From Lunularia cruciata (Eukaryota; Streptophyta; Marchantiopsida; Lunulariales; Lunulariaceae), in assembly GCA_948567375.1 (NCBI GenBank), contig OX419759.1, forward strand, positions 50,186,593-50,250,592: a stretch of 64,000 nt of DNA. The letters are read 5' to 3'. Under the pieces are notes generated by a model. It made no database searches and had not been told where the DNA came from. It saw only the letters and a list, made by a program, of their open reading frames with translations. Below are positions 26,881-60,355 of this stretch, piece after piece. Within the stretch, counting starts at the first letter, position 1. Each line of letters opens with the position of its first letter. A program made the translations under genes and the position numbers.

Positions 26881-26924
26881 AAAGTGAGATGTTTTGATTG
26901 GTGGGACCTTCAAGGAAATTATAT

Positions 26925-30153: not shown

Positions 30154-30605
30154 TGTCACACCATTTGTAGTGTCATATCTAGATTGCTTGGACATTGGAG
30201 TCGTAGTGATAGTACTTAGAGAGGTATTTCAATAGTTCCACATAGACTACTTTCCAATGGTCAAATTTTGTGTTTGGGGTATAGACTTCACGGTGGGGCA
30301 CATTGTCACTTTGTACCATTTGCACCATCCAGTGTGCCATCAGCGGGACCGTTAGGGTTCCAAACCTAGCTCAAGTCCAAGAGTATACTTTCAAAGTGCA
30401 GCTCTAGAGAGCTCACTTCTTTGATGTTGAGCCTTCGAGTTCTTGGTTGTGGTGGATAGAGGCCGGTGAGCATCACTTGGATTCTCTTAGCTAGAATGGA
30501 TGTGAATTAATATAATCAGTGCCCAATTGTTCATAGTTTATAGAATGACAGATCAAGTACTAATCTGAGTTGAGTTGAGTAAAAGAGGTGTAAACAATCT
30601 GATTA
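30154..30605 (+). repeat. Copy C, terminal repeat A1
   Basis: Matches A2 (46116-46601) until AACAATCTGATTA, where it passes into the leader (CATCAAAG...) instead of a B segment. No initiator-Met primer site follows it, unlike elements B and D. Confidence 0.88.
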
Positions 30606-31700: not shown

Positions 31701-32439
31701 TGTAATACCAAGAGCTAGCCATATGATCTAGATGTGAAATTTGGTTTGGTAACATCTAGAATGATGTTATACATGATGGTCAAAATAGATTAGAGAGAAG
31801 TATCACCAAAAGAGTATTTTTACTAATAGGGCAAAAACCAAAATAAATTTGAAAACCTTAGAACCAATAGCTAGACATATGATTTAAAGGTGAGAATTGT
31901 TTTGGTAATATTTGGAAGGATGCTACACATGATGGAATAAATAGATCAGAAAGGGTATCACCAAAAGGGGACTTCTACTAATAGAGTAGAAACTGAAATA
32001 TGTCTGAAATCTTTGAAGGCAATTTTGGAGACCTAAATGGATGAATTAGGCTTCGAAACTATGTGAACTTGCTTCCCAATAAAGGAAAGGCTAGCCTTCC
32101 CTCCCCCCTCGTTTGTCTCATCAAGAGCTTTCCAATAGTACCTCACCCATGTGATTTTGAGCTTCATATAAGAAGATTCCCTCCAATTAAAGCTTATTTG
32201 ACCAACCAGATAGGACCAAAACCGACATGTCACCCATCCAAGTAAGTAATCCAAGGGTGGAGCTTGTTGACATGTCACCTATTTGTGTGCCTAATCCTAT
32301 GGTGGAGCTTCCTTGGAGGAGATCCTCTTTTCAATATAATAAAGAGAGGTGCTGCTTTGGGGCATCGGAGTTTGACAATGAAAGTGTGTGTTTCTCATGG
32401 TGTGTGTATCTTTAGGTCTCCTATTCTTGGAGTATTACA
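31701..32439 (+). repeat. Element D1 5' LTR
   Basis: Starts TGTAATACCAAGAGCTAGCC and ends GGAGTATTACA. A TATA-like CAATATAATAAAGAG lies near 32333. Confidence 0.92.
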
Positions 32440-33059
32440 ATGGTATCAAAGAGAGTGTTGTCATCCAAGAGAGCGGATCACCCCTCTTCAAAGAACATGG
32501 GCTATTGAGACAATAATTTTGAAGAGAGACATCCTGGTGTAATTGGTAGATTAGGAGTGTTAGAAAGAGGATGGAATGGAGGCTCCGAGAGGACAATATC
32601 CAACACTTCACTTTCTATTCTTGAATCCATTCCACATCAAGATTATGTACATTCAGCATGAACACGTGAAAGTGTATCTTGATTTTCACTTTGGAGCAGG
32701 GTTCATGGATACAGTGATGAATTTGCCAAACCCAATGATTCTGCCTATAGTGATTTATGATAGAGAGTGGGATTTGAAAATCCCACTCTACATTTTTTTG
32801 TGGTAGATTTGAATGTCCCAAATCCTTTCCTTTTTTAACACTTAAGTAGAAATTTGTCATGTAGTGAGACCAAAAGTGATGTTTAGAGATTTTGTGGTCA
32901 GGAATTTTGGTGAGGAATATTATCAATGAGTGGTAGTTTTTGAGGTCCCAATGGTAGTTCCAATAGTTTATGCACCCTCCAGAGTGATCATATTAACTCT
33001 CTATCAATTGAAGTAGACAATAACAATTGAGTGTTATAGGAACCATGGATTCACAATTG

Positions 33060-34035
33060 CAAGAGTTGGTGCAAGGAATGTAGGGGATGTTGAACAAATT
33101 TCAAGAGATTAAGATGACCATGGGGGCGTTACAAAGTCAAGTGCAGACCCTCAAGAATGATCAAGCAATGCAAGACGAAGAGCCGTCTCAAATCCCAATA
33201 CCTGTGATTGAAGTACTTGGGGAGGTACTTGTGCCTTCAAACCTTATCAACAATGAAGCCACATTACTACTCCGGATGAAGAGGACCTGCAACATCAAGC
33301 CTTACAAGGGGCAATATACGATGGGAGTAGTGGAGAATTGGATCTTGAGAATGAATCGATATTTTTGGTTATTCTCAACAAAGATCACTGAGCATGCTGT
33401 AGGTGTGTTTGCATGTGGGTACTTGGCCAATAAAGCACTCACATGGTACAATGCTTGGGAACAATCCATGTTGGCAGAGAGAAAGAAGGTCACATAGACA
33501 ACAATGCAAGAAGGATTGCTGAAGAATTTCTAGTCAGTGGATTCTATGTAGATGGCCCCGATCCGACTATGGAGATTGAAACAAAAGAATAATGTACAAG
33601 AGTACGTGGAGACATTTTTGGATCTACAAGTCGCAATAACCAACATGAGCCTAGCAGAGGCTCTCAACAATTTCAAATGAGGGTTGAAGGAGCGGATTTG
33701 CCAAGAAGTCATGGTACAAAATCCTTGCACGATATTTCAAGCCATTGCTTGTGCACATGGAATAGCAAGGGCATTGGATTGAGGTGAAGGAGTAGTTCCA
33801 CGTGAACATTATTGGGCAGAAATTCCACCCATGGGTGGACCAATACCGATGGAATTGAGCAACCTTCAAGACCGAGGAGCACGACCCCTTCAAGAAGAAT
33901 GGGGACGGGTAGAAGAACAAAGAGATGGAGTCACACGAGGAGAACAATGCTGTTGTTACAATTGTGGTTGTATTGGGCGTATATCTACCAATTGTTGTTC
34001 TTGTCTCCCTAGAGGCCCTCGACCTTCATACATGT
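33060..34035 (+). pseudogene. Element D1 gag with zinc knuckle (fossil)
   Basis: A helical start (MLNKFQEIKMTMGALQSQVQ), a capsid region (NWILRMNRYFWLFS, ALTWYNAWEQS) and a CYNCGCIGRISTNC knuckle-like end near 33955-34000. Confidence 0.85.
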
Positions 34036-34189
34036 GATCTTTGAACAACATGGAGAGACGCACTGAAGAGGAAGAGGTGGAAATCACTTTGGAAAAACAA
34101 AGATCACTAGTAAATGTACCTCATGACCTTACTTGCTCAATAAGGAAGCAAAAAAGCAAGGGAAAGAAGAAGACAAGCACACAAAGGTA

Positions 34190-36045
34190 CCAAAATGTAA
34201 CCTCACAATTGATTGTAGTGAATGGAGTCCTAGAAGTCAATCAAGTGAGAGTATTAATAGATATGGGAGCCACAAAGAATTTCTTATCTTGCCCTATTGC
34301 AATGAGATTGGGAATGGATCTAGAGAGAGATGAGAGTGAAGAAGTAGAGTTACCTAATGGGCAAACAAAGAGGATTGAATCATTACCTAGATGGGTAATA
34401 CTCTTTGTAGGAGAATATCAAGAAGCAATTGAGTAGCAAGTGATACAATTAGCTTGTTATGATGCAATCTTAGGCATATCATGGATGGAGCATTACAACC
34501 CTATGGTAGATTGGAGGAAGAAAGTAATGAGAACACACCAATGGTTGATCATTGGGGATAAAAAAAATCACACAGGCAAGAGTTGCCTCTCTATGTCATA
34601 AGGACAACAACTATTTGTAATACCAATAGATGTTTCATGGGTCTAATAAGAGAAGTCCAAAGTGCACAACTTGATGGAAAAATTCTTGAGAAATTGAAGG
34701 ATGTGGTAAATGCGTTTCAAGATGTCTTTCTCGATGCTCTACCCTCAAGATTACCACCAAAAAGGAGAGTAGATCATAAAATTAAGACACTTTTGGGGAA
34801 GACACCTCCTTGTAAGGCTCCATATTGCCTATCACCTCATGAGTTGGAGGAGTGTAAGAATCAAATTGAGGATATGCTACAAAAAGGTTCATCTAACCCA
34901 ACGTATCACCATATGGGGCTCCGGTCGTGTTTGTGAAGAAGAAGGATGGTACAATACACATGTGCATTGACTATCGGAGTCTCAATCAGCAAAAAGTGAA
35001 GAAAAAATACCCCTTCCCTTGCATGGATTACCTGTTTGATCAACTCAATGGAGCAAGACACTTCACCAAACTAGATTTTCGGAGCGGATACAATCAAATC
35101 CAAATTGCAAAGAAGGATGTGTACAAAACTACCTTTTGAACTAGGTATGGACACTTTGAGTATCTTGTGATGCCTTTTGGTCTCACCAATGCACATGCCA
35201 CTTTCATGAGTCTAATGAATGACATATTTTGTCCATATTTGGATGAGTCTGTTATTGTCTTCTTAGACAACATTCTAGTATACAATAGCATAATGACGGA
35301 ACACAAACAACATCTACAAGAAGTCCTCCAAATTTTAAGATAGAATCAATTGTATGCTAAAATCTCAAAGTGCGAGTTTGGCAAGTCTAAAGTAGACTAC
35401 TTGGGTCATAGAGTAAGTGTAGAGGGTATTCAAGTACAGATAGATAAAATAAAGGTCAATCAAAAATGGAGTGCTCCAGAAGATCAGACTCAACTCAAGA
35501 GCTTCTTGGGGTTGACAAGGTTCTATCGTTGATTTGTCAAGGACTTCTCTAAGGTTGCATAGCCTTTAGCGACACTACTTGGCAAGAAGAAGAAGTGGAT
35601 GTGGGGAATCGTACAAGATTTGGCCTTTCAAGTTGCTACATGCCCCAAGCTTGAAGTGATATGACCCAAAACGTCCAATCAAGTTGGCTACAGATGCATC
35701 AGGCATAGCAATAGGAGCAATCCTACAACAAGAGTGGCATGACGGATGACATCCAATTGCATATTTCTCTTGAAAGTTGTTATCGGCAGAATGCAACTAC
35801 AACACCACAGAATGAGAGGAGTTAGCCATTGTCCTTGCAACCAAGCATTGGAAGCACTATCTAGGTAAGAAGGTATTTGTAGTAGAGATAAACCCCAAAC
35901 CTCTAGTCTACCTCAAGATGCAGAAGGATCTATCTTGTCGCCAGATTTGATGGGCAGAGTGGCAACAATGCTTCAGCATAACAATCACCTGTGTGGAAGG
36001 TAAGAAGCAACTTGCTGATGCATTCACCTACATGCTGATGGCAAA
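34190..36045 (+). pseudogene. Element D1 protease, reverse transcriptase and RNase H (fossil)
   Basis: VRVLIDMGATKNFLSC (about 34245-34295) is the protease site. [30 protein letters not shown] and a downstream LGHRVS segment (about 34925-35420) are reverse transcriptase. The RNase H region follows around 35650-36040 with a YFS and QQEWHD context. Confidence 0.88.
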
Positions 36046-36199
36046 CAACGTGGTGGCAAAGGTTAAGATTAACCTTGAATTCTGGCCAGAGATTCTGGCT
36101 GCTACAAAAACCAATCCACAGATTGTAGAAGCGCAATCATCCAAAGGCATCACTCACCTTTTGTGATGGAAGATTATGGATCCCAAACGTCCCAGAATT

Positions 36200-37518
36200 A
36201 TGCACTACCATTCTAGTGGAATGTCATGATTCGGCCATTGTAGGTCATGTCGGAGTGGACAAGACCTTGGATGGAGTCCAATGCCATTACTATTGGCCCA
36301 AGATAAGCAATGATGTGATGGACTACATGTGCAGCTGCCTACTTGTAAATAGAACAAAGATCCAAATCAAGCTCCAACAGTGCTCCTTCAACCTCTCCCC
36401 ACTCCTACCCAACGTTGGAACAAGTGAGTATGGATCTCCTTTATGAATTACCCAAGACCACTTCAAGGTTTGACTCCATCATGGTCTTTGTGGACCGGCT
36501 CAACAAAATAATTAATGTACGCCCTACCACCAAGGATGTGACTGCTCCAAAACTAGCTCAATTATACTTAGAGGCAATCTTCTCTCACCATGGCTTGTCT
36601 CGAGTACTCATCACCGATAGAGGCACTCAATTCACCAATTTGTTTTGGAAAACACTCTTTGGTTTCTTCGAAACCAAGTTCACCATGTCCATAGCTTACC
36701 ACCCACAAGTATATGACAAATAGAGCGGGCTAATCACACTATTGAAAGCATGTTATGTGGCTTCACCTTAGAAGAGCAAGAGAGGTGAGACACCTTACTC
36801 CTGTTGGTGGAATTCACTTACAATAATTTTGTGAATGCATCCACCAATGTCACTTTGTTCTTCCTCATGTATGGTGAGCATCCCTTCACACCTTCTAGCT
36901 TGATGAAGATCTGTCCAATGGCTACCAAGGTCGACGCAATTAACACATTTGTTTCTAGAATCCAACAAGGTGTAGAGAGCGCCAAGCATAGATTATACAT
37001 TGCACAAAATCAACAAAAGCAGTATGCTGATGCACACTATAGGCACATGAAATTCAATTTTGGGGATCAAGTGTGGCTATTGACAACCAACCTCATATTA
37101 GTTGGACCTCATAAGCTCAAACCTTGTTTTATTGGGCCTTTTTCTATTCTTCATTGAGTCAGCGCTATGGCCTATCACCTCAAGCTACCACCACACATGA
37201 AGATCCATCTAGTGTTCCATGTTTCCTTCCTATGAAGATATGCTCTTTGATCAGGCCAATGTCATTCCACACAAGACATTCAACCTTGTTCAACACTCAT
37301 TGATGGCACGGAGGAATATGAAGTAGAGCGTATTCTCCAAAAATGCATATGTGGTACTCGCCATCTGCGGGTGGACTATCTAGTACAATACAAAGGTTAC
37401 CCCTTCTATGAAGCAACCAGGGAACCCACTGCCAATTTGACACATGCACCAGTGTTGGTGCAAGCGTTTGAGCAACAACTGCACAATGAGGACGTTACGT
37501 CTTAAAAGGAGGGAGGTT
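36200..37518 (+). pseudogene. Element D1 integrase and chromodomain (fossil)
   Basis: VGHVGVDKTLDGVQCHYYWP zinc-binding part, FVDRLNK and LITDRGTQFTNLFW core segments, GDQVWLLTTNL, and a C-terminal EYEVERILQK...YLVQYKGYPFYEATREP chromodomain (about 37315-37430). Confidence 0.88.
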
Positions 37519-38239
37519 TGTAATACCAAGAGCTAGCCATATGATCTAGATGTGAAATTTGGTTTGGTAACATCTAGAATGATGTTATACATGATGGTCA
37601 AAATAGATAAGATAGAAGTATCACCAAAAGAGTACTTCTACTAATAGTGCAGGAATTGAAATACATTTGGAAACCTTAGAACCAATAGAACCAATAGAAC
37701 CAATAGCTAGACATGATTTAAAGTTGAGAATTGGTTTGGTAACATCTGAAAGGATGTTACACATAATGGACTAAACAGATCAGAAAGAGATATCACCAAA
37801 AGGGGACTTCTACTAATAGAGTAGGAATTGAAATATACCTAAAATATTTGAAGGTAATTGTGGAGGCTTAAACGGATGATTTAGGCCTTGAAAATGTGTT
37901 GATCCCCCCAATGGAGGAAAGGTTGGCCTTCCTTCATTCTGGTTTGTCTCATCAAGAGCTTTCCAATGGTACCTCATCCATGTGATTTTGAGCTTCCTAC
38001 AAGAAGATTCTCTAAAAGATTCCCTTTGGTCAAAGCTTGTTTGACCTACCAGATAGGACCAGAACCAACATGTCACCCATCCAAGTAAGTAATCCTATGG
38101 CGGAGCTTCCTTGGAGGAGATCCTCTTTATCTATATAATAAAGAGAAGGTGCTCCTTTGGGGCATGAGAGTTTGATAGTGAAAGTGTGTGTTTTTCATGG
38201 TATGTGTCTCTTTAGGTCTCCTATCCTCAGAGTATTACA
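37519..38239 (+). repeat. Element D1 3' LTR
   Basis: Same start and end as the 5' LTR with scattered divergence. It holds a 9-bp AGAACCAAT unit three times at 37679-37705, found once in the other LTRs. Confidence 0.92.
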
Positions 38240-40600
38240 TTCAGACTACCTTTGTTTCTCTTTGGTGAGGCAAGAAGTGATGATCTGCAAGATCGTGAGA
38301 GTGCATGTTGTGATGGCATGTTACAGGTTGCCTTTTCCCCTAATGTAGTTATCTCAATTAGAGTTACATTAGTGGGTGGTGTTCCGTGGGTATTGGCACT
38401 TGGTGGTGCTCAATTGGTGTTGACACTTGGTGGAGTACTTGTGGTTGCGGTTTGCAATTGCATTTGGTGGTTCCAATTTGTGGTTGCAGTTATGGTTACT
38501 TTGTCACGATGGAGTTCTTTGGGGATTCTAGAGGAGTTAGCCTTGCAATACGCAATGGATTTACTTGGAATGGCATTTGGTATCAGCATGTATCTTAGGT
38601 CCCAATTAGGGAGGAGATTGACTTTGAGTTAGAGTTTGACAAAAGAGCTGATTCAATTGGGAGTGCACTTGGCACGTCCATACCATTGTTATGGGACATG
38701 GACAAGATTTATGGGGCCTCCAAAAGCCCTAAGCATTACTTTTGTATAGTGGGTACCATTGAGTTGGATGACTTTTCATCTAGGAGTTTGATAGTTGGTG
38801 TGATCTGTAGCAAATGCGGAACCAGACTTATTTACACCTTTTATAGCATGGAAGGGGTTGTTTCAACAATTAGAGGGTCCACCAAAAGATGACTACCATG
38901 AGTTCAGGAGAGCTCATTTAGAGGAGATTGAGTTATGGAGATGGTATTGGTCTCAAAATTATGTCTCTATTACTTCAAGCTTGGTTGCCAAGAGTAGATT
39001 GGCTGTACCCATGAGTTCTAGCTTGAGTAGTGTTGGTGGAGCTAGTGGAAGTGCACTAGCTGGAGATAGTGCAACCACGAGTGGAGGTACCACTGCATGA
39101 GGTGGCATGGTATTGGGGTTTAACCCCATGGTGGAGTTCTTCCAGTGTTTGAGGCAGAACTACTAGGGAGTACGGATTGACAAGCTAAGGAGCTTGTATG
39201 AGTTCCCGTGGAAAGCTGGAGAGAGCCTATGCAAGGCATACACTCACATGAGACGGCTAATCAATTTCACTTAGGGAGTTAGAGAGGCTCAAGCAGTCTA
39301 GTTTTGGTATGGAATATTGGACAAAGAGTTACAACGTAGAGTTTGTGATGCTACATTGTTACAGGCTACTTTGCACACTTTAGCAATGGTCTTTGGTTTG
39401 GCTAAGTGTATTGAGCTCATGGTAGAGGAGAGGGTAATAACATCTGGATTTTGTAGGAAGACCTTATCTACAACTGTTACTTCTTCTAGAGTGCAGTAGA
39501 GTGCACCACGCCCAATTGGTTTTTGAGGATAGGGTGGACAACCCAGATTCTATGGAGCAAGTGAAGGGCATAGTGGAGCTAGATCTTTACCTTCCTTTTC
39601 AAGTCAAGAACAATCAATGAGTGGTAGTGTTGCTTGTTGGACTTGTGGTGGACCTCACCATAAGAAAGAGTGTACTCAAGGCAGCGGACTTGATACCTCT
39701 GGTGCATTGCAGCCAAACACAAAGGCAATATGAGCATTGCCATAAATCGGTCACACTAGTGACCGATGCTTTGATCTACACCTGGAGTTACAGAGTGGTA
39801 GGGCTGCTATGGAAGGTAGTAGAGGAGCTCTAGTTCATGGAGGACGAGGTGGTAGAGGATCTATACCTAGTAGAGGTGCAATACCTACCCTTACTTTTGA
39901 TACAACTATGGCTACTCGGATTGAGCAATTGGAGTTGAGATTGGATAGTATGGCCATTGCTCAAAGGCAATTAGATTTGGGTGTTGAGGCTTCCACCTCA
40001 TATGTTGGTAGTAGAGATGCTTTGGACTTCATGTGCGGAGCAGCACAGATGGATGCATCTGGAGCAGTGACTAGGAGTGCAATACGTGCTCTTGAGCCTA
40101 GAAGAGCCTTAGTGGAGTTGGACCCACAAAGAGGAGAGGTTGGGAGACATGTCAGACTTCCCTAGTCTTTCATGCTATCTGAGGCATTGCAAACAACATC
40201 CATGGCTCCTAGATGTCCAGTGCAGGTGTGGTAGGTGGTGATGGGGTGCATGATGGACTACTTACTAGTCAGCCACCTGCTATTACACAAACTGAGTTGA
40301 GCATGATGTTTGGGGCGGCTCAACTGATTATGCAATGCCCTTTGTTTCTAGCCAATGACATGTTTACATCGGGAGTTGATCCAACCCTAGTGTTCTAATT
40401 GGCTGCCATGCTTTGTGAGAGTAGGGATGATGCGGTTCCTACTACTAGAGCAGAGGTGGTTGATAGTGGAGTTGACTTGGTTGAGGAGCATGAGATCCAT
40501 TCAACAACGAGTGGTTTATAGCAGGCAGCAACGGCTAGACTAGAAGAGTTGCCAACTGGACTGGCCTTTGAGAGAGTGCGATTCACACCTGGTGTTATCT
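38240..40600 (+). pseudogene. Copy C gag (fossil)
   Basis: Resumes copy C after D1. Capsid-like sequence is followed by CWTCGGPHHKKEC (about 39635-39680), a zinc-knuckle-like motif, then a Gly/Arg-rich stretch (GGRGGRGSIPSRGA, about 39840-39885) and a helical segment ATRIEQLELRLDSMAIAQ (about 39908-39960). Confidence 0.7.
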
Positions 40601-40639
40601 TATTGGATAACTAGAGGGGGATTTTCTGTTTGGTTGGAC

Positions 40640-41000
40640 CTTTAGGGAAGGTCTATACACCACAAAGAGTCTTGTTAGACTCTGGTGCGCAACCCCTTAT
40701 GTTGGGGAAGGCTGCAGTAGTTGGTCTGGAGTTATGGAAGATCGATGTGGGAGGTGTCCATTTCAGATCAAGACATCTCTAGGTGGTGGTTTGACATAGT
40801 ACATCACACATGGGGAGCTTGTTGTCCAAGTTCAGCCTGGTCATCCAATTGATAGCTCGGTTGTCAAAGCTTAGGCTATTGCGATAATAGTAGAGTCATA
40901 TGATGTGCTAGTTGGGGGAGCAATGTTATACCCCATGGGTTTCAGTATTGACTATTGGGAGAAGACAACCTCCTATAGAACAGGTTGGTAGTCTAGTGAG
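40640..41000 (+). pseudogene. Copy C protease (fossil)
   Basis: VLLDSGAQPLMLGKA near 40670-40715 is the aspartic protease active-site pattern. VESYDVLVGGAMLYPMGFS (about 40890-40945) follows where the second half of the domain is expected. Confidence 0.75.
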
Positions 41001-41379
41001 GGATGGGTATGTCACCTACTAGTACGCTTCAGTAGTGGCAGTCTTGGCTCGATACAGTTGAGACCATGGCGGCATTAGTTTCAGCTTTTAATGGTGTAGT
41101 TACTTGGCCTAGTGACTTGTTGGAGGGGAATGGCCATGCAAAGGATACTCCAATACCAAAGGAGATCACTTGTATTTGGAGTACAAGTGGGATTGTTCCA
41201 TCCACCTTGGATGTTCCATTGTGGAGTTCAAAGGAGGCATTATAGCAACATGTAGATCATTGGTGCAATAGGCTTGGAGTGGCTCCTTTGTACCATTAGG
41301 AGATGAGTGTGAGGATGAACCTCCAGAGTTGATTACTTTGACACCTCTAGATACCACACTCATTGCTTGGTAGTATCCA

Positions 41380-42145
41380 ATAGAGGAGATATGTTTCTTA
41401 GAGTTGTTTGGTGGGACTAGCATCAGACTAGTTGCGGTATTACATAGGGGTATACGAGTATAGAGGTACTTGTATGTGGAGAGAGATGAGACAACTAGGC
41501 AAGTCTCTCTACATCATGTGGCATACTCGGCCTACCGGTATCCATAGTTATTATTGATGTCAACAGGAAGAGGTTACAAGAAGGCCTTACCAGCACATAT
41601 TTCCTTATTGGGGGCGCATGATCTGGAGAGACATGGGCTTGTTCACTTGGTGATTTCTGGATTGCTATATCAACAACATACATATGCTGGCCGAGGTTTG
41701 GGTCTTCAAAATCCTGGTTCTGGTGTGTTTTGGGAGATACTATAGATATTACAACATCTCCAGGTTCATCACTCCGTTTCTCCAACTTACATTTTGGAGA
41801 ACGTTCCTTTGATAGGTGATTCTTATACTCGGGTGGTGGCAAGTACACATCAGGTCCATTCTTGGATAGGACTTGCTATATTGTTAGATGCAGCCAGAGT
41901 GGGATCACGGGCTCATCGTCTTTGTCTTTGGTGGACAAACATCTTACCCAAAGAGGTTTCAGAGCGTGCATATGATGGGATTCAACGACAAGACCACATC
42001 CTTGTTGATGACATCTTGGATGTGGTGCATCAATCTCAAATGGTAGTAGTGGCTGATAGGTCACCTATGGCAATGGTGAACCTAGTTGGACAACCTAGAG
42101 CCACTTTTCCCACACTTATGAGTTTCCCAAGCTCTCATGCTTTTT
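41380..42145 (+). pseudogene. Copy C, C5-cytosine DNA methyltransferase-like domain (fossil)
   Basis: Between protease and RNase H lies a stretch with the ordered landmarks of a cytosine-5 methyltransferase. FLELFGGTSIRLVAVLHRGI (41394-41453) resembles motif I, the SAM-binding loop. YLYVERDE (41471-41494) resembles motif II. LVISGLLYQQHTYAGRG (41647-41698) lies where the catalytic loop is expected, and YILENVP (about 41788-41808) resembles the ENV motif. LLDAARVGSRAHR..LWWTNILP (about 41883-41950) resembles the closing motifs of DNMT3/DRM-type enzymes (R.R.FWGN). Such domains transfer methyl groups to DNA cytosine. The same domain recurs in copy A, so it belongs to the element. Family assignment is from memory of motifs, not a search. 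Confidence 0.75.
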
Positions 42146-42539
42146 GAGAAGGAGGACTTGGACTTGTTTGGGACTCACATTTATAGCAATTGGTGGAGCC
42201 TAACGCCCATGAGAGAGAGCAGGCAATGGGTTTTTGCACTAGTATTACCAATGTTCTAGTAGTATCAGAGGCATCTAGGCGTTAAGTGTTAGGTTAGGCT
42301 ATGGATCTAAACTGTTTGACCTGATTGTGAGCCTTGGTTTGGCAGAGTAGCGTAGGATGCGCTTGATAGCCATCACCACTCGGACACTTGTGAGCCCTGT
42401 GCCTATCAAGACAATTCAAGCACATGCTAGGGGCGATGGACTGAGTGAACATGGTATTCTTGGGACACCAGTTTACACAAGACCAAGCTTACACAAGAGT
42501 GGTGTTGAAGAGATAAGCAGGAGAGAGCTTTTGTAGAGC

Positions 42540-42965
42540 TAAAGGAGAGGTTGACATCTGCTCCTATTTTAAGGAGATTAATCAGAGGATGACCATTTCA
42601 GGTTCATATTGATTAGAGTATGTTGGGGCTTGGAGCAGTGCTTACCCAACATGATGATGAGGGGAAGGAATTTGTGGGGCATATGCTTGTCGCTCCAACA
42701 ATTCAGCGAAGGCAAAGTATAGTTCATATGAGGGAGAGTGCTTGGCAGCAGTTTGGGCAATAACACATTTATGATGTTACCTATTTGGTAACTCTTTCAC
42801 TCTCATCATTGATCATCAGCCACTGAAGTGGTTGATGGAGTCCAACAAGCTTTCAGAGAAGCTTGCACGATGGGCTCTGATTTTACAAGAGTATGACTTC
42901 ATGATTATTCACAAACTTGGAGTGGCAAATCGTGATACAAATGGGTTAAGTAGAAACCCATGTCC
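42540..42965 (+). pseudogene. Copy C RNase H region (fossil)
   Basis: A stretch with PFQVHID, LGLGAVLTQ, a middle part around 42700-42780 and EYDFMIIHKLGVANRDTNGL matches the RNase H and tether of Ty3/gypsy polyproteins. Confidence 0.75.
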
Positions 42966-43189
42966 CCGCCAGTCAGATCAGACTATGTTGGCATGGTGAG
43001 ATAGATGAGGAGTTGGTGCCAAGTTGGCATGAATTAGCCTTTCTTTGTATATTTTTTGAGGCTTTGGTGGTATCTATGTTAGCATACATAGGAGGAGTTA
43101 TTGAGGTCACGGATCTAGAGAGTGAAGATATTGGTATAGTTCAGCGAGACATTCATGATGATGTCTTAGTGATGGACTATCTTTGCATT

Positions 43190-44297
43190 GGTGTTGTGGG
43201 TGGCATATTTGGGGCCAAGGAGAGAGACAATGTTCTTCAACAAGCCAAGCGGTTCAGATTGGAGTGTATATACCTTCTTTGAGTATAGAAGGATGGTAGA
43301 GTACAAGTAGTACCAGTTCCATCTCAAAATCCACAATTGGTCCATCATGCTCATGAGGAGCTAGGATATTTTGGAGTAAAGCATACATATAGCTTACTCC
43401 AATGTCATTATTGGTGGCACGGTATGCAGACCAAGGTATAGCAATTTGTTGCCAGATTTGTGGTTTGTGGCCGAGTTAGAGCATCATTTAATACTCCTAC
43501 GCCATAGTTACACCCATCACCTATCATGGGATTGGGTTATTGTTGGAGTTTGGACTTTGTTGGACCTTAACCGTTGACTGTGAGACATCATCGGTATGTT
43601 TTGATGATGGTGGAGCACTTCTTCAAGTGAATTGAGTTGGTGGTACTTCTTGACAAGTCTAGTGAAAAGACAACTTACTTGTTCATGGATCAAGTTCTTA
43701 GTCATTTTGGTGCATCAGCGGAGGTTTTGAGTGATCAGGGTATAGAGTTCTTGGGAGAGTTTCAGATCTTGTGTAACAAGGCTTTGATTGATCATTGTAC
43801 TACATCCCAAGATCACCTTGAGGCAGATGGCTTAGCAAAGAGAGTGGTTTAGATAGTGAAGAGAGGATTGTAGAAGTATGGTTTGTAGAGAGGCCACTTG
43901 GGAGATTCAGATCTTCGATTACATTGGTTGGACATGGGCTATCGGTTCAACTGGCAAGCCTTCTTAGCATCCTTCTCTCCTTACTTTCTACTTTATGGAC
44001 AAGATCCAGATTTACCTATAGCCATTTGTCAAGATGCTATTGTAGTTTTGGACTTGGATAATCCAAATATATGGATGAGCACATGTTCTCAACGGGCAAA
44101 GATCTTTTAGAGAATGATGCCAATAGCCTTTGAGAACTTGGCGATTGCTCAACATAGAGATACCTTATGCTATGCTACCATTCAAGGAGGAGGTTATAGA
44201 CCCTCAATCTGTCAATTTCATCCTGGTGACTATGTATATCTACAGCAGACAACACCGATGACACTTGATGTTTTGATAGGCCGCACTATCTTGAGAG
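43190..44297 (+). pseudogene. Copy C integrase (fossil)
   Basis: GAKERDNVLQQAKRF, the zinc-binding HAHEELGYFGVKHTYSLL, then SLDF.GP and VLSDQGIEFLGEF core segments align with copy E. The C-terminal FHPGDYVYLQQT segment lies near 44215-44250. Confidence 0.85.
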
Positions 44298-45545
44298 ATC
44301 TTCCTCCAAAAAAAACTAAAACTTTTGCTTCAGGCCAAAAAAACACCCATGGGCTATAAAATAGGGGTGTTATGGTAGATTAGCTTAGGCAATAGAACCA
44401 AAATGGGTAACGCCTGTGCGCTCTATTTTGCATTCATCCGCACTTGAATGGATGAGTGAGTGAACCAACATTTTTTTGCTACGCGCTAAACTTTCTCCAC
44501 AAAAAATCTAATAGCAAGCTTGCAATCGACTAAAGGTTTCATCTCCCAGGCATATTTTATAAATATAATTCGAGAGGATTTGCTAAAGGTGTAACCTCGG
44601 ATATCTTGCTTGTGTTATTGGTAGAGGCGACGAATCCATATTGGTTGTTCAGGTCGATTAAATGGTGCAGAAATAGCCCATAGCTTGCATTGAACACGGT
44701 ATCCACCCCTAGGCAATTGGCAAAATCTTCCGCCAACCCTTGAAGTTATGCAATCACTAGGCCACAGTAATTGCTATGCTACATGCCTACTTTTTCCTAT
44801 GATACTAGTTGTTTTCTGATATTGTTCCTTGAGTTGCCAAATTGTTGGTGTTGGTTTTTTCAATCTCTTTTTTTGTAGATTATTTTATTTTTATTCCGTC
44901 AAGCCATAAAAGAGTGGCTTATTGACAATCACTTGACACGGGTCATCCAACATTGAGTGCAAGCGCAGCCGCCCTCAAAAAAAGTGGCATCCCCAACGCT
45001 CTCTTTCTGGTCGAGTGCTATGCACCTCTCCCTCTGGTTTTGTGCTGCGCACCTATAATCAAGATGTTTTTTGTGTTCCGAGTAAGTTTATTGGTCTGCC
45101 AAACATTTTCTAAAATTTGGCGACAAAATTTAAATCTTGATGCAAACATATGAAGTTTAGTTTGTTTTTTTAGTCATTGCGGATAACGGAATTGAACCCA
45201 TATCCTCTACTTGGAAGGCAGATAATTTACCTTTAATCTATATCCGCATTGAAAAAAAAATATAGAATTTGACAGTCATGAATTATCACCAATGATTCAT
45301 GATCAACACTTGCTTGATTTGCAAAATAAGGGTATTTTAGGGGTGGTTATTGCAAAGCTCTCAACCAACAGCCCAAAGGCCACGAGACTCTAGGGAGAAG
45401 CGCTACGTGCTTGACCAATGGGAGGCATTGGCTTGGAGAAGGTTGCAATGTCAGCTGGCGATAGTCACCAGAACCTAAACCTGGCATGTTTACCAATTCG
45501 ATCAGCTTTCCAGGGGGGTGCATGAGAAAGCAAAAGCAAAAAAAA
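44298..45545. mobile_element. Unclassified 1.25-kb insertion in the copy C integrase region
   Basis: Copy E reads straight from ...CTATCTTGAGAG into TGCGCGAGG, but in copy C these are separated by this block. It is unrelated to the retroelements, starts with A-rich/T-rich sequence, ends in an A-rich tail (GCAAAAGCAAAAAAAA), and holds a tRNA-Gly-like sequence. I see no clear target duplication or terminal inverted repeat, so the type is open; a retroposed or captured organellar fragment is possible. Confidence 0.6.
45178..45247 (-). tRNA. tRNA-Gly(UCC)-like sequence, organelle-like, probably a pseudogene
   Basis: On the minus strand the acceptor arms GCGGATA and TATCCGC pair perfectly, with discriminator A. 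The anticodon arm TCTGC-CTTCCAA-GTAGA gives loop anticodon UCC, and GGGTTCAATTCC is a T-loop-like segment. The T stem seems one base short, and the D arm is A/T-rich as in organellar tRNAs. It lies inside an insertion, so it is likely a transferred copy rather than a working gene. Confidence 0.6.
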
Positions 45546-45840
45546 TGCGTGAGGTTTTGCCATCTGGAGTCCTTGTGTTGGAAGGACGTGATAGTGTAAT
45601 TTGGAAGGATCATGTGTGCAATTGTGCACCATGCCACCTCCCAAACATTGATGGTACTATAGACCAAAGCTTGGTACTTGTATGTGCAGGCTTGAGGTGT
45701 ATGTTATGTGGCTCTTCTGGTGGAGCTACTATTATATTAGTATGTGATAGCTGTTCCAGAGGATGACATATGGCATGTATGACTCCTCCCCTCATGGTGG
45801 TTCCTCAAAGACAATGGTTATGTCCTAGATGTACTTGACC
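45546..45840 (+). pseudogene. Copy C, integrase end and PHD-finger-like domain (fossil)
   Basis: EVLPSGVLVLEGRDSVIWKD is followed by CNCAPCHLPNIDG and then the PHD-like series CMLCG..., CDSC, H-x2-C and CPRC. It aligns with copies A and E. Confidence 0.75.
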
Positions 45841-46008
45841 TATAGCTAGTTCATTCTGTATATGGTATAGATGGTAGACAGGCGACTTATGATGGGGCTC
45901 CATAACACCCGGCCTTTTGATCTTTGCTTATCATAGGGTATACCATATACTTAGAGTAGATGGCTATCTGAAGTTAGAGGGACCTAACCACCAGCTAGGG
46001 AGGGCAAT

Positions 46009-46113
46009 TGTGGCACTTTAGAATCTATGTATGACTTATGTGTGAGTTGTGCTTCTACAATGTATGATGTTGACAACAATGTATGTTGTGTAGCAATGTA
46101 TATATGCATGACA
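46009..46113 (+). repeat. Copy C, repeat B1
   Basis: 105 bp starting TGTGGCACTTTAGAATC after the purine-rich CTAGGGAGGGCAAT. It ends GCATGACA; after AC the A2 repeat starts TGTCATGC, so the junction is a near-perfect inverted repeat. Confidence 0.9.
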
Positions 46114-46115
46114 AC

Positions 46116-46601
46116 TGTCATGCCATTTGTCGTGTTGCATCTAGATTGCTCGGACATTAGAGTCATTGTGATAGTAGTTAGAGGTATTTCAGCAATTCCC
46201 CATAGACTACTTTCCGATGGTCAAATTTTGTGTTTGGAGTACTGACTTCACGGTGGAGCCCACCATCACTTTGCACCATTCACACCATTGAGTGTGCCGT
46301 CAGCAGGACCGTTAGGGTTCCAGACCTAGCTTGAGTCCAAGGGTATACTTTTGAAGTGTACCTTTGAACTCGAAGGCTCAACATCAAAACAAGTGAGCTC
46401 CAAAGAGCTCACTTCTTTGATGTTGAGCCTTTGAGTTCTTGGCTATGGTGGACAGAGGCCGGAAAGCATCACCTGGATTCTCTTAGATAGAGTGAGTGTG
46501 GCTTGATAGTAATCAATGCCCAATTATTGGTAGTTTATAGAGTTATAGATGAAGTACTAATCTGAGTTGAGTTGAGTCAAGAGTTGTAAACAATCTGATT
46601 A
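46116..46601 (+). repeat. Copy C, repeat A2
   Basis: Direct repeat of A1 (30154-30605). It includes an extra local inverted duplication at 46366-46438 that is not present in A1. Confidence 0.9.
46366..46438. repeat. Long hairpin, arms of about 34 bp, 4-base loop
   Basis: Arms GAACTCGAAGGCTCAACATC... (46366-46400) and its near reverse complement (46405-46438) are separated by CAAA. There are about three mismatches. Copy E has a shorter version centred on GAGCTC at the same place. Confidence 0.85.
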
Positions 46602-46602
46602 T

Positions 46603-46707
46603 TGTGGCACTTTAGAATCAATATATGACTTATGTGTGAGTTTTGCTTCTATAGTGTATGATGTTGACAACAATTTATGTTGTGTAATGATGTATATATG
46701 CACAACA
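46603..46707 (+). repeat. Copy C, repeat B2 (outer end)
   Basis: 105 bp, direct repeat of B1. It ends GCACAACA, followed by the target duplication CCCA. Confidence 0.9.
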
Positions 46708-47769: not shown

Positions 47770-48169
47770 TGTAACAATATGGAGCTTAGCGACAAAGTTA
47801 ATATGGCTAACAAAGTAGCAAATACAACAAATTAGTCTAGAATATTCTAGAAGTATTTAGGAAGCTTCTTGGCTAGCTTAGCTTGCACCCCAAGTAGGTA
47901 GCTTCTAGAAGGAAGCTTCTAGAAGCTTTTAACTAGCTTAGCTTGCACGCCAAGGAAGCAACTTCTAAAAGGAAGCTTCTTGATTAACTTGGCTTGCACT
48001 CCAAGAAAGCGGCTCAAGGAAGCTTCTTGAGAAGCTTCTCAAGAGCCTTGTAGGATCCCTATAACTACAAGAGCCAAAGCTCATGCTAGGCATTTGGGGT
48101 TTACCCAGATTCAAGTGTCCCATGTGATCTTCCATTCTTTTATTTCTCTCCTTAGTCTTGGACTTTACA
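47770..48169 (+). repeat. Element B 3' LTR
   Basis: Starts TGTAACAATATGGAG, ends GGACTTTACA, and is followed by TSD TTTGT. It differs from the 5' LTR by scattered changes and indels, so the insertion is not recent. Confidence 0.9.
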
Positions 48170-48174
48170 TTTGT

Positions 48175-48660
48175 GGTGAGAGCTCAAGCCATTGCAACAA
48201 TAGTAGAGTCATATGATGTGCTAGTTGGAGGAGTAATATTATAATCTAGGTTTAAGCCTTAACTTTTGGGAGGAGAAAGGTTCTTATATGCCAGGTTGGC
48301 AATTAGGTTAGGGATGGGTGTGTTACGGATTGGTGCACTTCACTATTGGCAATCTTGGCTCATTATAGTCAAAGACTATGACATCAATTCAACTTTCAAT
48401 GGTTTTTCTACTTGGCTTGGTGACTTATTGGAGGGGAATGGCTACGTAGAAGATACTCCAATACCAAAGAAGATCACTTGGATTTGCAGTATGAGCAAGG
48501 TTGTTCCATTGTGGAGTTATAAGGAGACATTGAAACAACATGCGGATCAATTGGTGCAACAAGCTTGGACTAGAGCCTTTATACCATTAGGAGACCAATG
48601 TGAGGAGGAGCCTCTAAAATCTATTACCTTATCACCTTTGGATACTACACTTATTGTTTG
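48175..48660 (+). pseudogene. Copy A, protease-to-methyltransferase linker (fossil)
   Basis: Resumes element A after B. VESYDVLVGG-like sequence aligns with copy C at about 40890-40930, and the following part aligns with copy C up to 41380. Confidence 0.7.
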
Positions 48661-49345
48661 GTAGTATCCAATAGAGAGAGTATGCCTATTGGATTTGTTT
48701 GGTGGGATCAACATTGGACTTGCTATAGAATTATAAGCAAGTATATAAGTTAAGAGATACTTGTATGTGGAGAGAGATAGGATTATTAGGTGAGTCTCTC
48801 GACTTCATAACATACTTGTCCTACTGGTATCTAGAGTTAGTATTGATATCAATAGTTAGAGATTACCAAAAGATCCTACCAACCAGTATTTCCTTGCTAG
48901 GAGTACAAGATCTAGAGAGACATGGTCCCATTTATTTGGTGATTTTTGGATAGCCATGTCAAGAACATATTTATACTGGCAAAGGTCAAGGTCTATGAGG
49001 TCCTCATTTTGGTGTTTTTTGGGAGATGTTATGTATACTACATCATCTCTTTGTTCATCAAGCCATGTCTCAATCCTATATTTTAGAGAACATCCCTTTG
49101 ATGGATGCTTCTTGCACACAAGTTGTAACAAGTACACATCAAGTCCATTCTTGGATGAGACTTACCATGTTATTAGATGTAGCTAGAGTTGGATCACAAG
49201 CTCATTATCTTTGTCTTTGGTGGACAAACCTCTTATCTAGAGAGGTTTACAATGTGCATATTATAGGATTTAATGATTATCCCACCTTATTATTGATGAT
49301 ACTTTGGATGTTGGGTGCCAATCTCAAATAATGGCAATAGTGAAC
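48661..49345 (+). pseudogene. Copy A, C5-cytosine methyltransferase-like domain (fossil)
   Basis: Same domain as in copy C. A glycine-rich LDLFGG segment (48688-48720) resembles methyltransferase motif I (cofactor binding). YILENIP (about 49077-49098) resembles the ENV motif, and HQVHSW...DVARVGSQAH...LWWTNLL (about 49135-49235) resembles the late motifs of DNMT3/DRM-type enzymes. The order and spacing are right for the family. The copy is broken in many places. Confidence 0.7.
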
Positions 49346-50202
49346 CTTGTTGAGCAACCTAGAGCCACTTTACTCACACTTATGGGTTTCCTACGCTCAT
49401 ATGAGTTTTGAGAGGGGGTCTTGGACTTGTATGGAACTCAAAATTATAGCAGTTGGTGGAGCCTAATGCAAATGAGAGAGAGAGAGAGCAGCCAATGGGT
49501 ATTTGTACCAATATTACTACCATTTCAATAATGTAAGAGGCATCCAAACATCAAGTGTTAGGTCAAGCTATGGACTTGAACTGTTTGACATGGATTGTGA
49601 GCCTTGGATTGGTAGAGCAAATGTAGGATGTGCTTGATAGGCATCACCACTTGGACACTTGTGAGATTTGTGCCTATCAAGACGATTCAAGTACATGTTG
49701 GGGATGATGGACCAAGTGTGCATGGTATTCTTGGGACACAACCAATGTCTGTTAGTGAGAGTGGTGTTCTTGAGGTTCATCCAAGTGAGCATGGACTACT
49801 TGGGTTCCTTGGATTACTTGGTTATCTAGAGGACATGTGGAGCTTGTAGCCAAAGCAAAGGGAGTTTTTTGCTCTAAGGTTGGAAGCATGACATTATTTC
49901 TCCCAAGGGCCTAGTGTAGCAACTAGTTGGTGCATCTTCCGTTGCTACATCAATTATAGAAGATACTTGGGAGCCAAACATTGGACCCAAGCTTATAGTA
50001 GGAGAGATGGAGAGTTTGGAGGTTCTTGAGGAGCTACACGAGTTGTTGTGCCTTTAGTATGAAGGATTTGGGTACTTTGAAAGGACTTGGTATTTGGATT
50101 GAGGTGACTAGTGATAAATTAGTTTTTTGACATCCTTACAAATATAGTGATATGGAAAGAGCATTAATTCAAAGCTGAAGTAGAGACCTTTTCGAAGTTG
50201 GG
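49346..50202 (+). pseudogene. Copy A, region between methyltransferase and reverse transcriptase (fossil)
   Basis: Aligns with copy C 42150-42470 at its start (for example around CACTTGGACACTTGTGAG). No domain of its own is recognised. D2 is inserted at its end, with TSD TTGGG. Confidence 0.55.
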
Positions 50203-50951
50203 TGTAATACCAAGAGCTAGCCATATGATCTAGATGTGAAATTTGGTTTGGTAACATCTAGAATGATATTTACATGATGGAAAAAATTAGATCAAATAGA
50301 AGTATCACCAAAAGAGTACTTCCACTAATAGGGTAGAAACCAAAATAAACTTGAAAACCTTAGAACCAATAGCTAGACATATGATTTACAGGTGAGAATT
50401 GGTTTGGTAACATTTGGAAGGATGTTACACATGATAGGACTAAATAGGTCAGAAATAGGTCTCACCAAAAGGGGACTTCTACTAGTAGAGTAGGAATTGA
50501 AATATGCCTAAATTCTTTTATGGCAATTTTGGAGGCCTAAATGGATGAATTAAGCCTTGAAAATGTGCAGATTCCCCTCCATTGAATGTATGTAAGCTTG
50601 GCCTTCCCTCCTCCCTAGTTTGTCTTGTTGATAGCTTTCCAAAGGTACCTCACTCACGTGATTATGAGATTCATATAGGAATATTCCCTAAAAAGATTCC
50701 CTCTAGTAAAAGCTTATTTGACCAGCCAGATAGGACCAAGACCAACATATCACCCATCCAAGTAAGTAATCTAAGGGTGGAGCTTGCTGACATGTCACCT
50801 ATCTATGTGCCTAATCCTATGGTAGAGCTTCCTTGGAGGAGATCCTTTTTTTCTATATAATAAAGAGAAGGTGCTCCTTTGGGGCATTGGAGTTTGAGTG
50901 TGAAACTTGTGTTTGTGCATTTGTGTTTCATGCTATCCTCATAACATTACA
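50203..50951 (+). repeat. Element D2 5' LTR
   Basis: Starts TGTAATACCAAGAGCTAGCC and ends TAACATTACA. TATA-like CTATATAATAAAGAG lies near 50853. TGGTACCATAGCAGG just downstream sits at the primer-binding position. Confidence 0.92.
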
Positions 50952-51539
50952 ATGGTACCATAGCAGGTGTTTCAATCCAAGAGAGTGGATCACCTCTCTT
51001 GGAAGAACATGGGCTACTAAGACTGAGTAATTTTGGGGTGAAAACCCGTAGAGAAATTGATAGGATAGGAGTGTTTTAGAAAGAAGATGGGATGGAAGCT
51101 CCTATAGGACAATTTCTTGCACCACATTTTCCATTTCTGACTCTGTTTCATATCAAGGTCATGTATACTCAGCGAGAGCAAGTGAGAGTATACCTCATTT
51201 ACCATTTTGGAGTAGAGTTCCTGGACATAGTGATGAATTCACCAAACTGGGTGATTTTGCCTATAGTGATTTACAATAGAGAGTGTGATTTGACAATCTA
51301 CATTTTATTGTGATGGATTTGAATGTCCCAAATCCTCTCCCTTTCAACACTCAAGTAGAAATTTGTTATGTAGTGAGACCAAAAGTGATGTTTAGACATT
51401 TCATGGTAAGGAATTTTGGTGAGGAACATTATCAACGAGTGATAGCTTTTGAGGTTCCAATGGTAGTTCCAATAGTTTGTGCGCCCTCCAAAGTGATCAT
51501 ACTAATTCTCTATTGAAGTAGACAGTAGCAATTGACTGT

Positions 51540-53180
51540 TGCAAGAACCATGTTGCAAAAGCTGGTGCAAGGAATGCAAGAGATGTTGAACAAATTTTGA
51601 GAGATTAAGATGACCATAGAGACATTACAAAGTCAAATGCAAAGCCTTAGGAATGATCAAGCAATGCAAGAAGAAGAGTTGTCTCAAACCCTAGTACTTG
51701 TGATTGAAGTATTTGGAGGTGAACCCCTACCTACAAACCTGGTCAACAATGAAGCCACATTGCTACTTTGGATGAAGAAGACCTGCAACATCGAGCCTTA
51801 CAAGGAGCAGTGTACAATGGGAGTAGTGGAGAATTGGATCTCAAGAATGAATTGATATTTCTGATTGTTCTCAATAGAGATCAACGAGCATGCTGCAAGA
51901 GTGTTTGCATGTGGGTACTTGACCAATAAAACCCTCACATGGAACGATGCTTGGGAATGATCCATGTTGGCAAAGAGAAGAAGGTCACATGGACAACAAT
52001 GCAAGAAGGATTGCTGAAGAATTTCCAATTGGTGGATTCTATGTAGATGACCCAGATCTGTGAGCTGGCCTATCTCTCACTCAAGATGAATCTCTAATGG
52101 CTTTTATAGTAGCGCACCATGGACTAAGAAGGCAAAGAACCCCAACTCTATCATACTCCTCCAAGGCTAACACTCCAATACTCAAGACATTGCTCATTAG
52201 AGAACTCAATGAGAGAGAGATAGGTGCAAATGAAAGGATGATGAGTACTTCCTCACCCCTTGTTTATATACTTGTGAAATAGTTACGCACCAAAGTTACT
52301 AATTACAAGAGTAACTCAAGTTACTGGGCTAAAAGTCAAGTAAAGTCAAAAAGTATAAAGGAATATCCATTCACATGAGCATATTCCACTAAACATGTGA
52401 TCTTATCTTGACCTAACCACTAAGTCAAGGATTCTTTCACATGGGCTATCCTTGGACTATAGAAGAATCCAAAACAAAAAAGCTTGCGGGCCCAAGAGTT
52501 CTCAACTCTTTCCTCAAAGCCAAACACCTAAGAATAATACCAAGTCATGACACTTGAATCCAAAATAGTGGTGCTCATCTTTTCTACATCCTTTATCTCT
52601 ATATAAATAATATCTCTCTAGTACTTGTAATACCAAGCTAAATATCACAATACCACACATGCATAAATGGGTGTTACATATCCGACTATGGGGATTGAAA
52701 CAAAAGAACAACATACAAGAGTATGTGGAGGCATTTTTAGATTTACAACTTGCAATAACCAATATGAGTCTAGTAGAGGCTCTCGACAATTTCAAACAAG
52801 GATTGAAGGAGCGGATTTGCAAGAAGTTATGGTACAAAATCCTTGCACGGTAGTTGAAGCCATTGCTTGTATGCAAAGAATAGCAAGGGCATTGGATGGA
52901 GGTGAAGGAGTAGTTCCACCTCAACGTTATTGGGAAAAAATGCCACACATGGGTGGACCAATATCAATGGAACTAGGCAACCTTTAGTTTCAAGACTGAG
53001 GGGCAGAACTGCTTCAAAGAGAGCGGGGATGAGTAGAAGAATAGAGAGATCTCCCACAAGGAGAAGGAGCTCAAGGAGAACAATGCCATTGTTACAATTA
53101 TGGCCGTATTGGGCACTACCAACTGACGTGCTCGTCTCCCTAGAGGCCCTCAGGCTTCATACATGCAATCTTTGAACAAC
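51540..53180 (+). pseudogene. Element D2 gag (fossil), split by a solo LTR
   Basis: Aligns with the D1 gag: the TIETLQSQMQSLRNDQAMQ start, a NWISRMN segment and a knuckle-like end near 53080. The block 52059-52678 is foreign (family F solo LTR). Confidence 0.82.
52059..52678 (-). repeat. Solo LTR of family F inside element D2
   Basis: Closely matches the LTR at 62468-63146. On the minus strand it starts TGTAACACCC and ends GGCTCACA-like (CCAGCTCACA). Flanks AGATC (left) and ATATC or TATC (right) look like a slightly changed 4-5-bp target duplication. No internal sequence remains, as after LTR-LTR recombination. Confidence 0.88.
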
Positions 53181-53319
53181 ATGGAGAGACACACTAAAGA
53201 GGAGGAGGTGGAAATCACTTTGGAAAACAAAGATCACCAATACCTTTAGCTTTACTGGCTCAATAAGGAAGCAAAAAAGTGAGGGAAGGAAGAAAAAAAG
53301 TGCACAAAGATCCCAAAAG

Positions 53320-55140: not shown

Positions 55141-55299
55141 TGGCAAACAATTTGGTGGTAGAGGTTAAGATTAATCGTGAATTCTGGCTGCTACAAAAAT
55201 TGATCCACAAATTGTAGGAGCGGAATCATCCAAAGGTGTCACCAACACCCAAGGACTCACCTTTTGTGATGGTAGATTATGGATCCCAAATGTCCTAGA

Positions 55300-56600: not shown

Positions 56601-56607
56601 GGAGGTT

Positions 56608-57349: not shown

Positions 57350-57354
57350 TTGGG

Positions 57355-58160: not shown

Positions 58161-58189
58161 TAGCACCAACCAGTACGATCAGACAAGAA

Positions 58190-59571: not shown

Positions 59572-59573
59572 GT

Positions 59574-60353: not shown

Positions 60354-60355
60354 AT

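Follow-up and report, generated by a model that had tools for sequence, protein, structure and literature searches.

A DNMT3-type cytosine methyltransferase in a Ty3/Gypsy retrotransposon family of the bryophyte Lunularia cruciata

Introduction

Plants silence transposons through DNA methylation. When a land-plant transposon brings a de novo methyltransferase of its own, this silencing logic is reversed, as the element could mark its new copies with the silencing signal. Retroelements with a cytosine DNA methyltransferase (DNMT) are known from algae, as in KnitGypsy-Dnmt3 of Klebsormidium nitens, which combines a Ty3/Gypsy pol, an unrearranged DNMT3 within the polyprotein and DIRS-like split repeats, and from the dinoflagellate elements SymbioDIRS-Dnmt3 and SymbioLINE-Dnmt (PMC5890265). 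In that paper the gain in Klebsormidium is described as an acquisition of its own, and the dinoflagellate elements are treated as independent captures (PMC5890265). A 2025 paper places DNMT3 in retrotransposons of streptophytes and dinoflagellates and labels those with long terminal repeats (LTRs) as Copia (PMC12344493). Here we analyze a 64,000-nt stretch of the Lunularia cruciata genome (contig OX419759.1, positions 50,186,593 to 50,250,592), hereafter the window, in which an initial annotation had noted a cytosine methyltransferase-like domain in two decayed copies, C and A, of a gypsy-type retroelement. Further copies were sought in the assembly of 565.77 Mb and 74 contigs, from a genome described as inflated by Ty3/Gypsy bursts (PMC9985172). 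The domain is confirmed as the DNMT3-type cytosine methyltransferase of a Ty3/Gypsy family, with sequence and predicted fold closest to DNMT3A/B, and the family has the domain order of Gypsy, unlike the Copia label in PMC12344493. The initial annotation had mentioned such retroelements in algae, which KnitGypsy-Dnmt3 bears out, and had known of no described land-plant family; none was found in the literature searched, although public databases hold gene models of the family from Marchantia, Sphagnum, Calypogeia and Riccia.

The methyltransferase domain

A DNMT profile was built from public relatives and one open Lunularia copy (L010), with the window excluded; the slices used for this profile, for the trees and for dN/dS begin at residue 1020 or 1025 of the first open reading frame (ORF1), past motif I. 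At E <= 1e-2 its matches within the window are copy C (E 2.1e-107) and copy A (E 3.1e-40, at about 48665-49700) only, so that the methyltransferase reported for both copies is borne out. In copy C the domain does lie at 41380-42145 as first annotated, but its true extent is longer, about 41383-42411, with motifs IX-X past an internal stop. It follows the protease, as had been stated, and the real order in the family is protease, DNMT, reverse transcriptase (RT). The domain appears to precede RNase H in copy C because the end of ORF1 and residues 1-333 of ORF2, including the RT, are deleted there (tblastn), and no ORF1/ORF2 junction with its TAG survives in this copy.

The domain is a trait of the family and not a chance capture, as the initial annotation had proposed. 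A genome search with the 303-residue domain, in which the best 130 of 12,788 first-look candidates were scored and copy counts are therefore lower bounds, gave at least 130 matches, all of full length (130/130); one is the query itself and the others are 95–97% identical to it. By our own count of the table, 82 of the scored domains are free of internal stops and 48 contain at least one; several sit within an ORF1 frame of 1428 codons. A genome search with the PF00145 profile returned at least 123 matches, all above the cut-off and most with a profile range of 48–120. Pfam DNA_methylase matches the open copies (1.9e-7 and 5.3e-9); the Pfam check proposed for the decayed window fragments failed, with DNA_methylase unmatched and 0 families found. 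The motifs, which we take to be those named I to X, stand in the canonical order I-IV-VI-VIII-IX-X, and the closest solved relatives are DNMT3 enzymes. Assignment to DRM, whose motifs are rearranged and permuted, was rejected, since in ORF1 motif I comes ahead of motifs IV, VI, VIII and X. The host possesses a separate DNMT3-like exon (L001; best PDB matches DNMT3C at 2.4e-15 and DNMT3A at 1.9e-14) and separate DRM-like (L002) and CMT-like (L003) exons, both judged by eye.

Gene order and a putative leaky stop

The ORF1 frame of the open copies L010 and L011, which has 1428 codons from stop to stop, contains in order gag with zinc knuckles, protease and DNMT, with motif I at about residue 1004 and motif X near 1310. 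Only the DNMT exceeds the Pfam cut-off and gag is weak (E 0.07); zinc knuckles and protease were assigned by eye and by homology to relatives with a Pfam protease (P0044). One in-frame TAG follows, and then ORF2, which in copy L014 has 1037 codons for RT (RVT_1, 5.8e-32), RNase H (RT_RNaseH, 3.1e-36), integrase (Integrase_H2C2, 1.8e-18; rve, 1.1e-12) and a PHD finger. In this ORF2, Pfam at E <= 1 lists the PHD and no chromodomain.

The stop is followed by CARYYA in 18/18 blast rows, which represent 16 distinct copies since the rows L006/L009 and L016/L017 overlap. The letters vary (CAGCTA in L013, CAACTA in copy A) and the motif is constant. Tobamoviruses and other plant viruses use UAG CAR YYA as their readthrough motif (PMC3542737). 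Leaky stops that separate gag from pol are described as very rare among retrotransposons, and the example given there has no CARYYA (PMC3441728). From motif match and conservation, the TAG between ORF1 and ORF2 is a candidate leaky stop with a tobamovirus-type context. A Marchantia protein (P0001) likewise terminates shortly past the DNMT, as expected from a stop at this place.

Relatives, domain order and phylogeny

Relatives occur in the bryophytes Marchantia polymorpha, M. paleacea, Calypogeia fissa, Riccia sorocarpa, Sphagnum fallax, S. troendelagicum and S. tenellum, in several strains of Closterium, in Klebsormidium nitens and in many metagenome proteins, and the public models are mostly hypothetical or unnamed proteins. 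Among named homologues of the DNMT those of Marchantia rank first, with up to 71% identity to M. polymorpha over part of the domain and 69% over the whole; the corresponding values are 82% for RT-RNase H, 65% for gag and 60% for protease.

Domain order was tallied in 97 sequences that have a DNMT plus protease, RT or integrase (96 public proteins and the Lunularia ORF1). In type 1 (69/97) the DNMT stands after protease or gag or before RT, and this type includes every named bryophyte, Closterium and Klebsormidium member; P0011, a gene model without RT, also belongs here. In type 2 (28/97), none with a named host, it stands after RNase H or before integrase. The Klebsormidium proteins P0156 (protease-DNMT-RT-RNase H-integrase) and P0148 (gag-protease-DNMT) show the same order as Lunularia and are likely the published KnitGypsy-Dnmt3 itself. 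A PHD finger is found in the Lunularia ORF2 and in 19/28 type-2 proteins; for bryophytes the PHD survey covers the Lunularia copies, as the sequences of the other two bryophyte proteins that match integrase break off within that domain. One type-2 metagenome protein (P0030) has past its PHD, at about 1715-1755, a second methyltransferase-like stretch with DPWAGTGT and SPWF-like motifs by eye and a weak match to D12 adenine methylase that stays under the cut-off (E 0.16).

The DNMT tree, with human DNMT3A and the host DNMT3 and DRM exons as outgroup and supports taken on the unrooted tree, separates 84 element DNMTs from the three outgroup pieces (0.998). Its type-1 side of 53 sequences, Klebsormidium among them, is free of type-2 members (0.911). 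The bryophytes group with seven metagenome sequences (0.95) and Closterium forms a group (0.975); P0148 and P0156 do not form a group with each other. The RT tree splits 19 type-2 RTs from the other 19 (0.997), and the two trees agree on type 1 versus type 2. Its type-1 side also holds the two ordinary gypsies of the window, beside Closterium (0.84). A single RT lineage of DNMT carriers finds no support in this tree, which is unfit as a test of single capture, its only two controls being copies of one ordinary gypsy. Either the ordinary gypsies lost the domain, or the domain moved between Gypsies, or the controls are misplaced as long branches.

Element ends

The element has the end structure A1-leader-body-B1-A2-B2, in which A is a 77-bp block plus about 375 bp and B is a 107-bp block. 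One copy of repeat A stands at the 5' end and a second close to the 3' end, between two B blocks; blastn detected no 5' copy of block B, and the termini are TGTC...GACA. A conventional LTR reading was rejected, as the A and B repeats do not make two identical LTRs. B1-A2-B2 is present in L016, copy C and the minus-strand copy of the window, and A1 in L012 (with L033), L017 (with L035) and copy C. There are 12 differences over 449 positions between A1 and A2 of the copy L035/L017/L016, and thus this copy is not brand new. Copy L011 retains just the 77-bp block of A1, with spacer and leader missing and a 3-bp TCT microhomology at the join (L011:641-730); this is taken as a deletion and not as the structure of the family, a template switch being also named. 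Target duplications of 4 bp (CATA, ACTT, CCCA) flank 3/3 copies with both ends in hand.

The layout of split repeats matches the one termed DIRS-like in KnitGypsy-Dnmt3 (PMC5890265). The order DIRS itself is characterized by a tyrosine recombinase and is not known to make target duplications. Membership in DIRS is ruled out by the DDE-type integrase domain and the 4-bp duplications. The B1/A2 junction GACAGCTGTC is a perfect 10-bp palindrome (L011:8743-8752 and other copies), which resembles what element ends joined in a circle would give.

Copies in the window

The features of the window are collected in Table 1. Copy C starts with TGTCACACC and ends with GCACAACA, with CCCA on either side. 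Gypsy integrase region runs on both of its flanks (28992-30153 and 46708-47756), as if copy C had inserted into another gypsy. Compared with the open ORF1 of L010 from the same genome, it shows 71–81% amino-acid identity in pieces (38416-42488); its DNMT has 8 stops among the codons compared, and the catalytic Cys is gone, with GLLYQQ where open copies have GWPCQG. The DNMT pieces of copy A are 40–71% identical to the same ORF1 (tblastn); PCQ is retained, with a stop two residues ahead of the Cys and frameshifts.

Copies A and C had been called nested, which is incorrect: neither lies inside the other, and each hosts a nested ordinary gypsy, about 6.5 kb in the leader of copy C. The two ordinary Ty3/Gypsy insertions (31701-38229 and 50203-57351) are about 86% identical and represent the same element. 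The third copy, on the minus strand, shows 96.5% amino-acid identity. No DNMT was found in the old fragment at 24277-27150 or in its downstream stretch, in a search that included the profile.

Table 1. Features of the DNMT3-Gypsy family and associated insertions in the 64,000-nt window.
Feature	Position	Strand	Evidence
Old 5' fragment of a related element (leader, gag, protease)	24277..27150	+	tblastn pieces at 41–69% identity
Copy C, whole DNMT3-Gypsy element including two later insertions	30154..46707	+	ends and target duplication, blastn, profile
Copy C, A1 repeat at 5' end (77-bp block + ~375 bp)	30154..30605	+	blastn to A and spacer blocks
Ordinary gypsy nested in copy C leader, outside the DNMT family	31701..38229	+	about 86% identical to the copy at 50203-57351
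Copy C, ORF1 upstream of DNMT: gag, zinc knuckle, protease; decayed (frameshifts, stops)	38416..41260	+	tblastn with L010 ORF1
Copy C, DNMT3-type cytosine methyltransferase domain, decayed	41383..42411	+	tblastn and profile
Copy C, ORF2 from residue 334 (RNase H, integrase)	42482..44296	+	tblastn
Insertion in copy C ORF2, 1.2 kb	44297..45541	.	gap between tblastn pieces
Copy C, C-terminal part with PHD finger	45542..45835	+	tblastn; PHD identified on an open copy
Copy C, 3' repeats: B1 46007-46113, A2 from 46115, B2 46601-46707	46007..46707	+	blastn
Copy A, 5'-truncated, split by ordinary gypsy (~50203-57351)	48167..60118	+	tblastn, blastn, profile
Copy A, DNMT3-type domain, decayed, frameshifted	48665..49700	+	tblastn and profile
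Copy A, ORF1/ORF2 junction, TAG CAACTA retained (fits TAG CARYYA)	49872..50033	+	blast rows of junction
Third copy, young, 3' part only (ORF2 residues 578-1037 with PHD, then B1-A2-B2)	60249..62467	-	tblastn, blastn

Selection and decay

Values of dN/dS for young copies were calculated pairwise (Nei-Gojobori) from stop-free copies (gag 6/11, protease 12/14, DNMT 10/15, RT 7/12). Against L010 or L014, copy C gave 0.38 for gag, 0.37 for protease, 0.41 for DNMT and 0.78 for RNase H-integrase, and copy A gave 0.40 for protease, 0.49 for DNMT, 0.53 for RT and 0.62 for RNase H-integrase. Judging from these old-copy values, the old lineages preserved the DNMT and gag to a similar degree; among young copies the DNMT is the loosest of the four domains. 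The PHD values of the old copies (1.99 and 1.76) come from about 50 codons and are uninformative.

With L010 as reference, C-to-T changes affect 36% of CG, 29% of CHG and 8% of CHH sites in copy C and 55%, 43% and 14% in copy A, with A/T transitions at 3–5% in the same comparison; this pattern is the footprint expected of plant-type methylation. Unpolarized values are 28, 22 and 5% for L010 versus copy C (CG/CHG 1.26, CG/CHH 5.2), 50, 40 and 10% for L010 versus copy A (1.25 and 5.1) and 36, 25 and 11% for the ordinary gypsy pair of the window (1.44 and 3.4). Since the ordinary pair ranks the contexts alike, host methylation explains the C-to-T decay. The CG/CHG ratio is 1.78 for copy C versus the minus-strand copy and 1.06–1.64 among six young copies, and CG/CHH is somewhat higher in the family, 5.1–5.3 in three older comparisons versus 3.4 in the ordinary gypsy.

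What the methyltransferase may do

It had been suggested from the initial annotation that the enzyme might shape the silencing or timing of its own element. In the model that we favor, at a probability of roughly one half, the DNMT is packaged with Gag and methylates the fresh DNA of the element before integration. Ribosomes would mostly halt at the UAG, giving DNMT at the level of Gag and RT-integrase-PHD at a fraction of it, and the leaky stop would set the ratio of the two products as in retroviral gag-pol. The protease could free the DNMT within the particle, or the enzyme could stay in the particle as made; it would then write de novo marks, probably in CG, on the double-stranded cDNA. 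Because the DNMT would be made together with the main protein of the particle, cDNA is preferred over chromatin as its substrate. The integrase would insert the cDNA, and the PHD finger would anchor the complex on the tails of histone H3. DNA that arrives pre-marked would resemble host heterochromatin, might not be treated as foreign and might harm the site where it inserts less; the cost would be later maintenance by the host, and decay.

Several results speak against this model. The young-copy dN/dS is highest in the DNMT (0.50, versus 0.31 in gag, 0.38 in protease and 0.40 in RT), and RT-RNase H is closer to Marchantia than the DNMT is (82% versus 69%). No element-specific CG footprint was found, as the CG/CHG values of the family bracket the 1.44 of the ordinary gypsy pair. 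A Klebsormidium relative gave no methylation in yeast, in a test that its authors call inconclusive (PMC5890265). No PHD was found in four Closterium models (P0117, P0119, P0139, P0141) that run 152–159 residues past the integrase; either these elements lost the PHD, or other lineages gained it, or the models stop short. The PHD is also absent from Klebsormidium P0156 (116 residues past the integrase) and from P0048 (236 residues past). As it is missing in the four Closterium models, the PHD is not essential to this kind of element.

It is unlikely, yet worth weighing, that the DNMT acts after insertion and in trans, on resident copies and their flanking chromatin, serving as a copy-number brake to the benefit of the host and hence of the element. 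The strong CG and CHG decay of the copies and the histone-reader-like PHD of ORF2 would fit such a brake, and silent copies of the Klebsormidium element are methylated (PMC5890265). However, the decay spectrum is like that of an ordinary gypsy, and the family is abundant and partly open, with 82 of the best 130 domains free of internal stops.

We consider it quite improbable that catalysis is now irrelevant and that the domain is kept as a structural or nucleic-acid-binding extension of Gag. The top dN/dS among the four domains and a motif VI Asn replaced in 10/83 members could be read in this way, but the catalytic Cys is present in 78/80 and the motif VIII Arg in 79/81 members with a residue at the position, and the DNMT is better conserved toward Marchantia (69%) than gag (65%) or protease (60%).

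DNMT2-type enzymes act on tRNA, and the domain might methylate RNA, either the element RNA or a primer tRNA, and so shield the genomic RNA in the particle. The anatomy would package the DNMT at the level of Gag together with the RNA genome, and RNA is raised for the LINE DNMT in PMC5890265; nevertheless, with sequence and predicted fold closest to DNMT3 and not to DNMT2, this role is very unlikely. That two copies picked up host sequence by chance or in a single event, a reading for which only the blank Pfam result on the decayed fragments could be cited, is refuted by the profile matches (E 2e-107 and 3e-40), the at least 130 genome matches and the homologues at the same place in other bryophytes and algae.

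Comparison with known systems

An enzyme on the Gag side of a putative leaky stop and a reader on the integrase side make a testable proposal, namely that the mark is set inside the particle, ahead of integration, and since the genetic model Marchantia polymorpha carries relatives the question can be tested directly there. A wider scenario, which is tentative and as a whole rather doubtful, is that one ancient capture of a host DNMT3, before the split of Klebsormidium and land plants, founded a Ty3/Gypsy lineage with a methylation writer and a PHD histone reader; the writer would have moved once within pol, it would stand in bryophytes on the Gag side of the leaky stop so that particles integrate pre-methylated DNA, and bursts of the family would have helped to inflate the Lunularia genome.

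The kind of element has been known from Klebsormidium since 2018, and what may be new are the bryophyte hosts, the PHD finger and the leaky stop that would place the DNMT on the Gag side. The bryophyte family, its PHD and its putative leaky stop were found undescribed in the literature searched, a scope outside which most subscription journals, preprints and supplements fall.

The orchid Ty3/Gypsy element with an m6A RNA demethylase domain (PMC9289625), reportedly a recent acquisition by its title, is likewise a Gypsy with an acquired nucleic-acid-modification enzyme, there an RNA demethylase and here a DNMT. Chromoviruses, the Gypsy elements with a chromodomain, share with the Lunularia family a chromatin-reader domain past the integrase, where PHD replaces the chromodomain in Lunularia, and they are not known to carry a DNMT. 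The type-2 metagenome elements (RT-RNase H-DNMT-integrase-PHD; P0023, P0030), for which no description was found in the literature searched, have a related DNMT, an RT-RNase H-integrase pol and a terminal PHD, and differ in that the DNMT lies between RNase H and integrase. SymbioDIRS-Dnmt3 and SymbioLINE-Dnmt belong to DIRS and LINE, whereas the Lunularia family is a Gypsy with a DDE-type integrase and 4-bp target duplications. The PHD finger is not mentioned in the main text of the KnitGypsy-Dnmt3 paper (PMC5890265). Compared with KnitGypsy-Dnmt3, the family described here resides in a bryophyte, carries a PHD past the integrase and an in-frame TAG past the DNMT, and is present in more than 100 near-identical copies.
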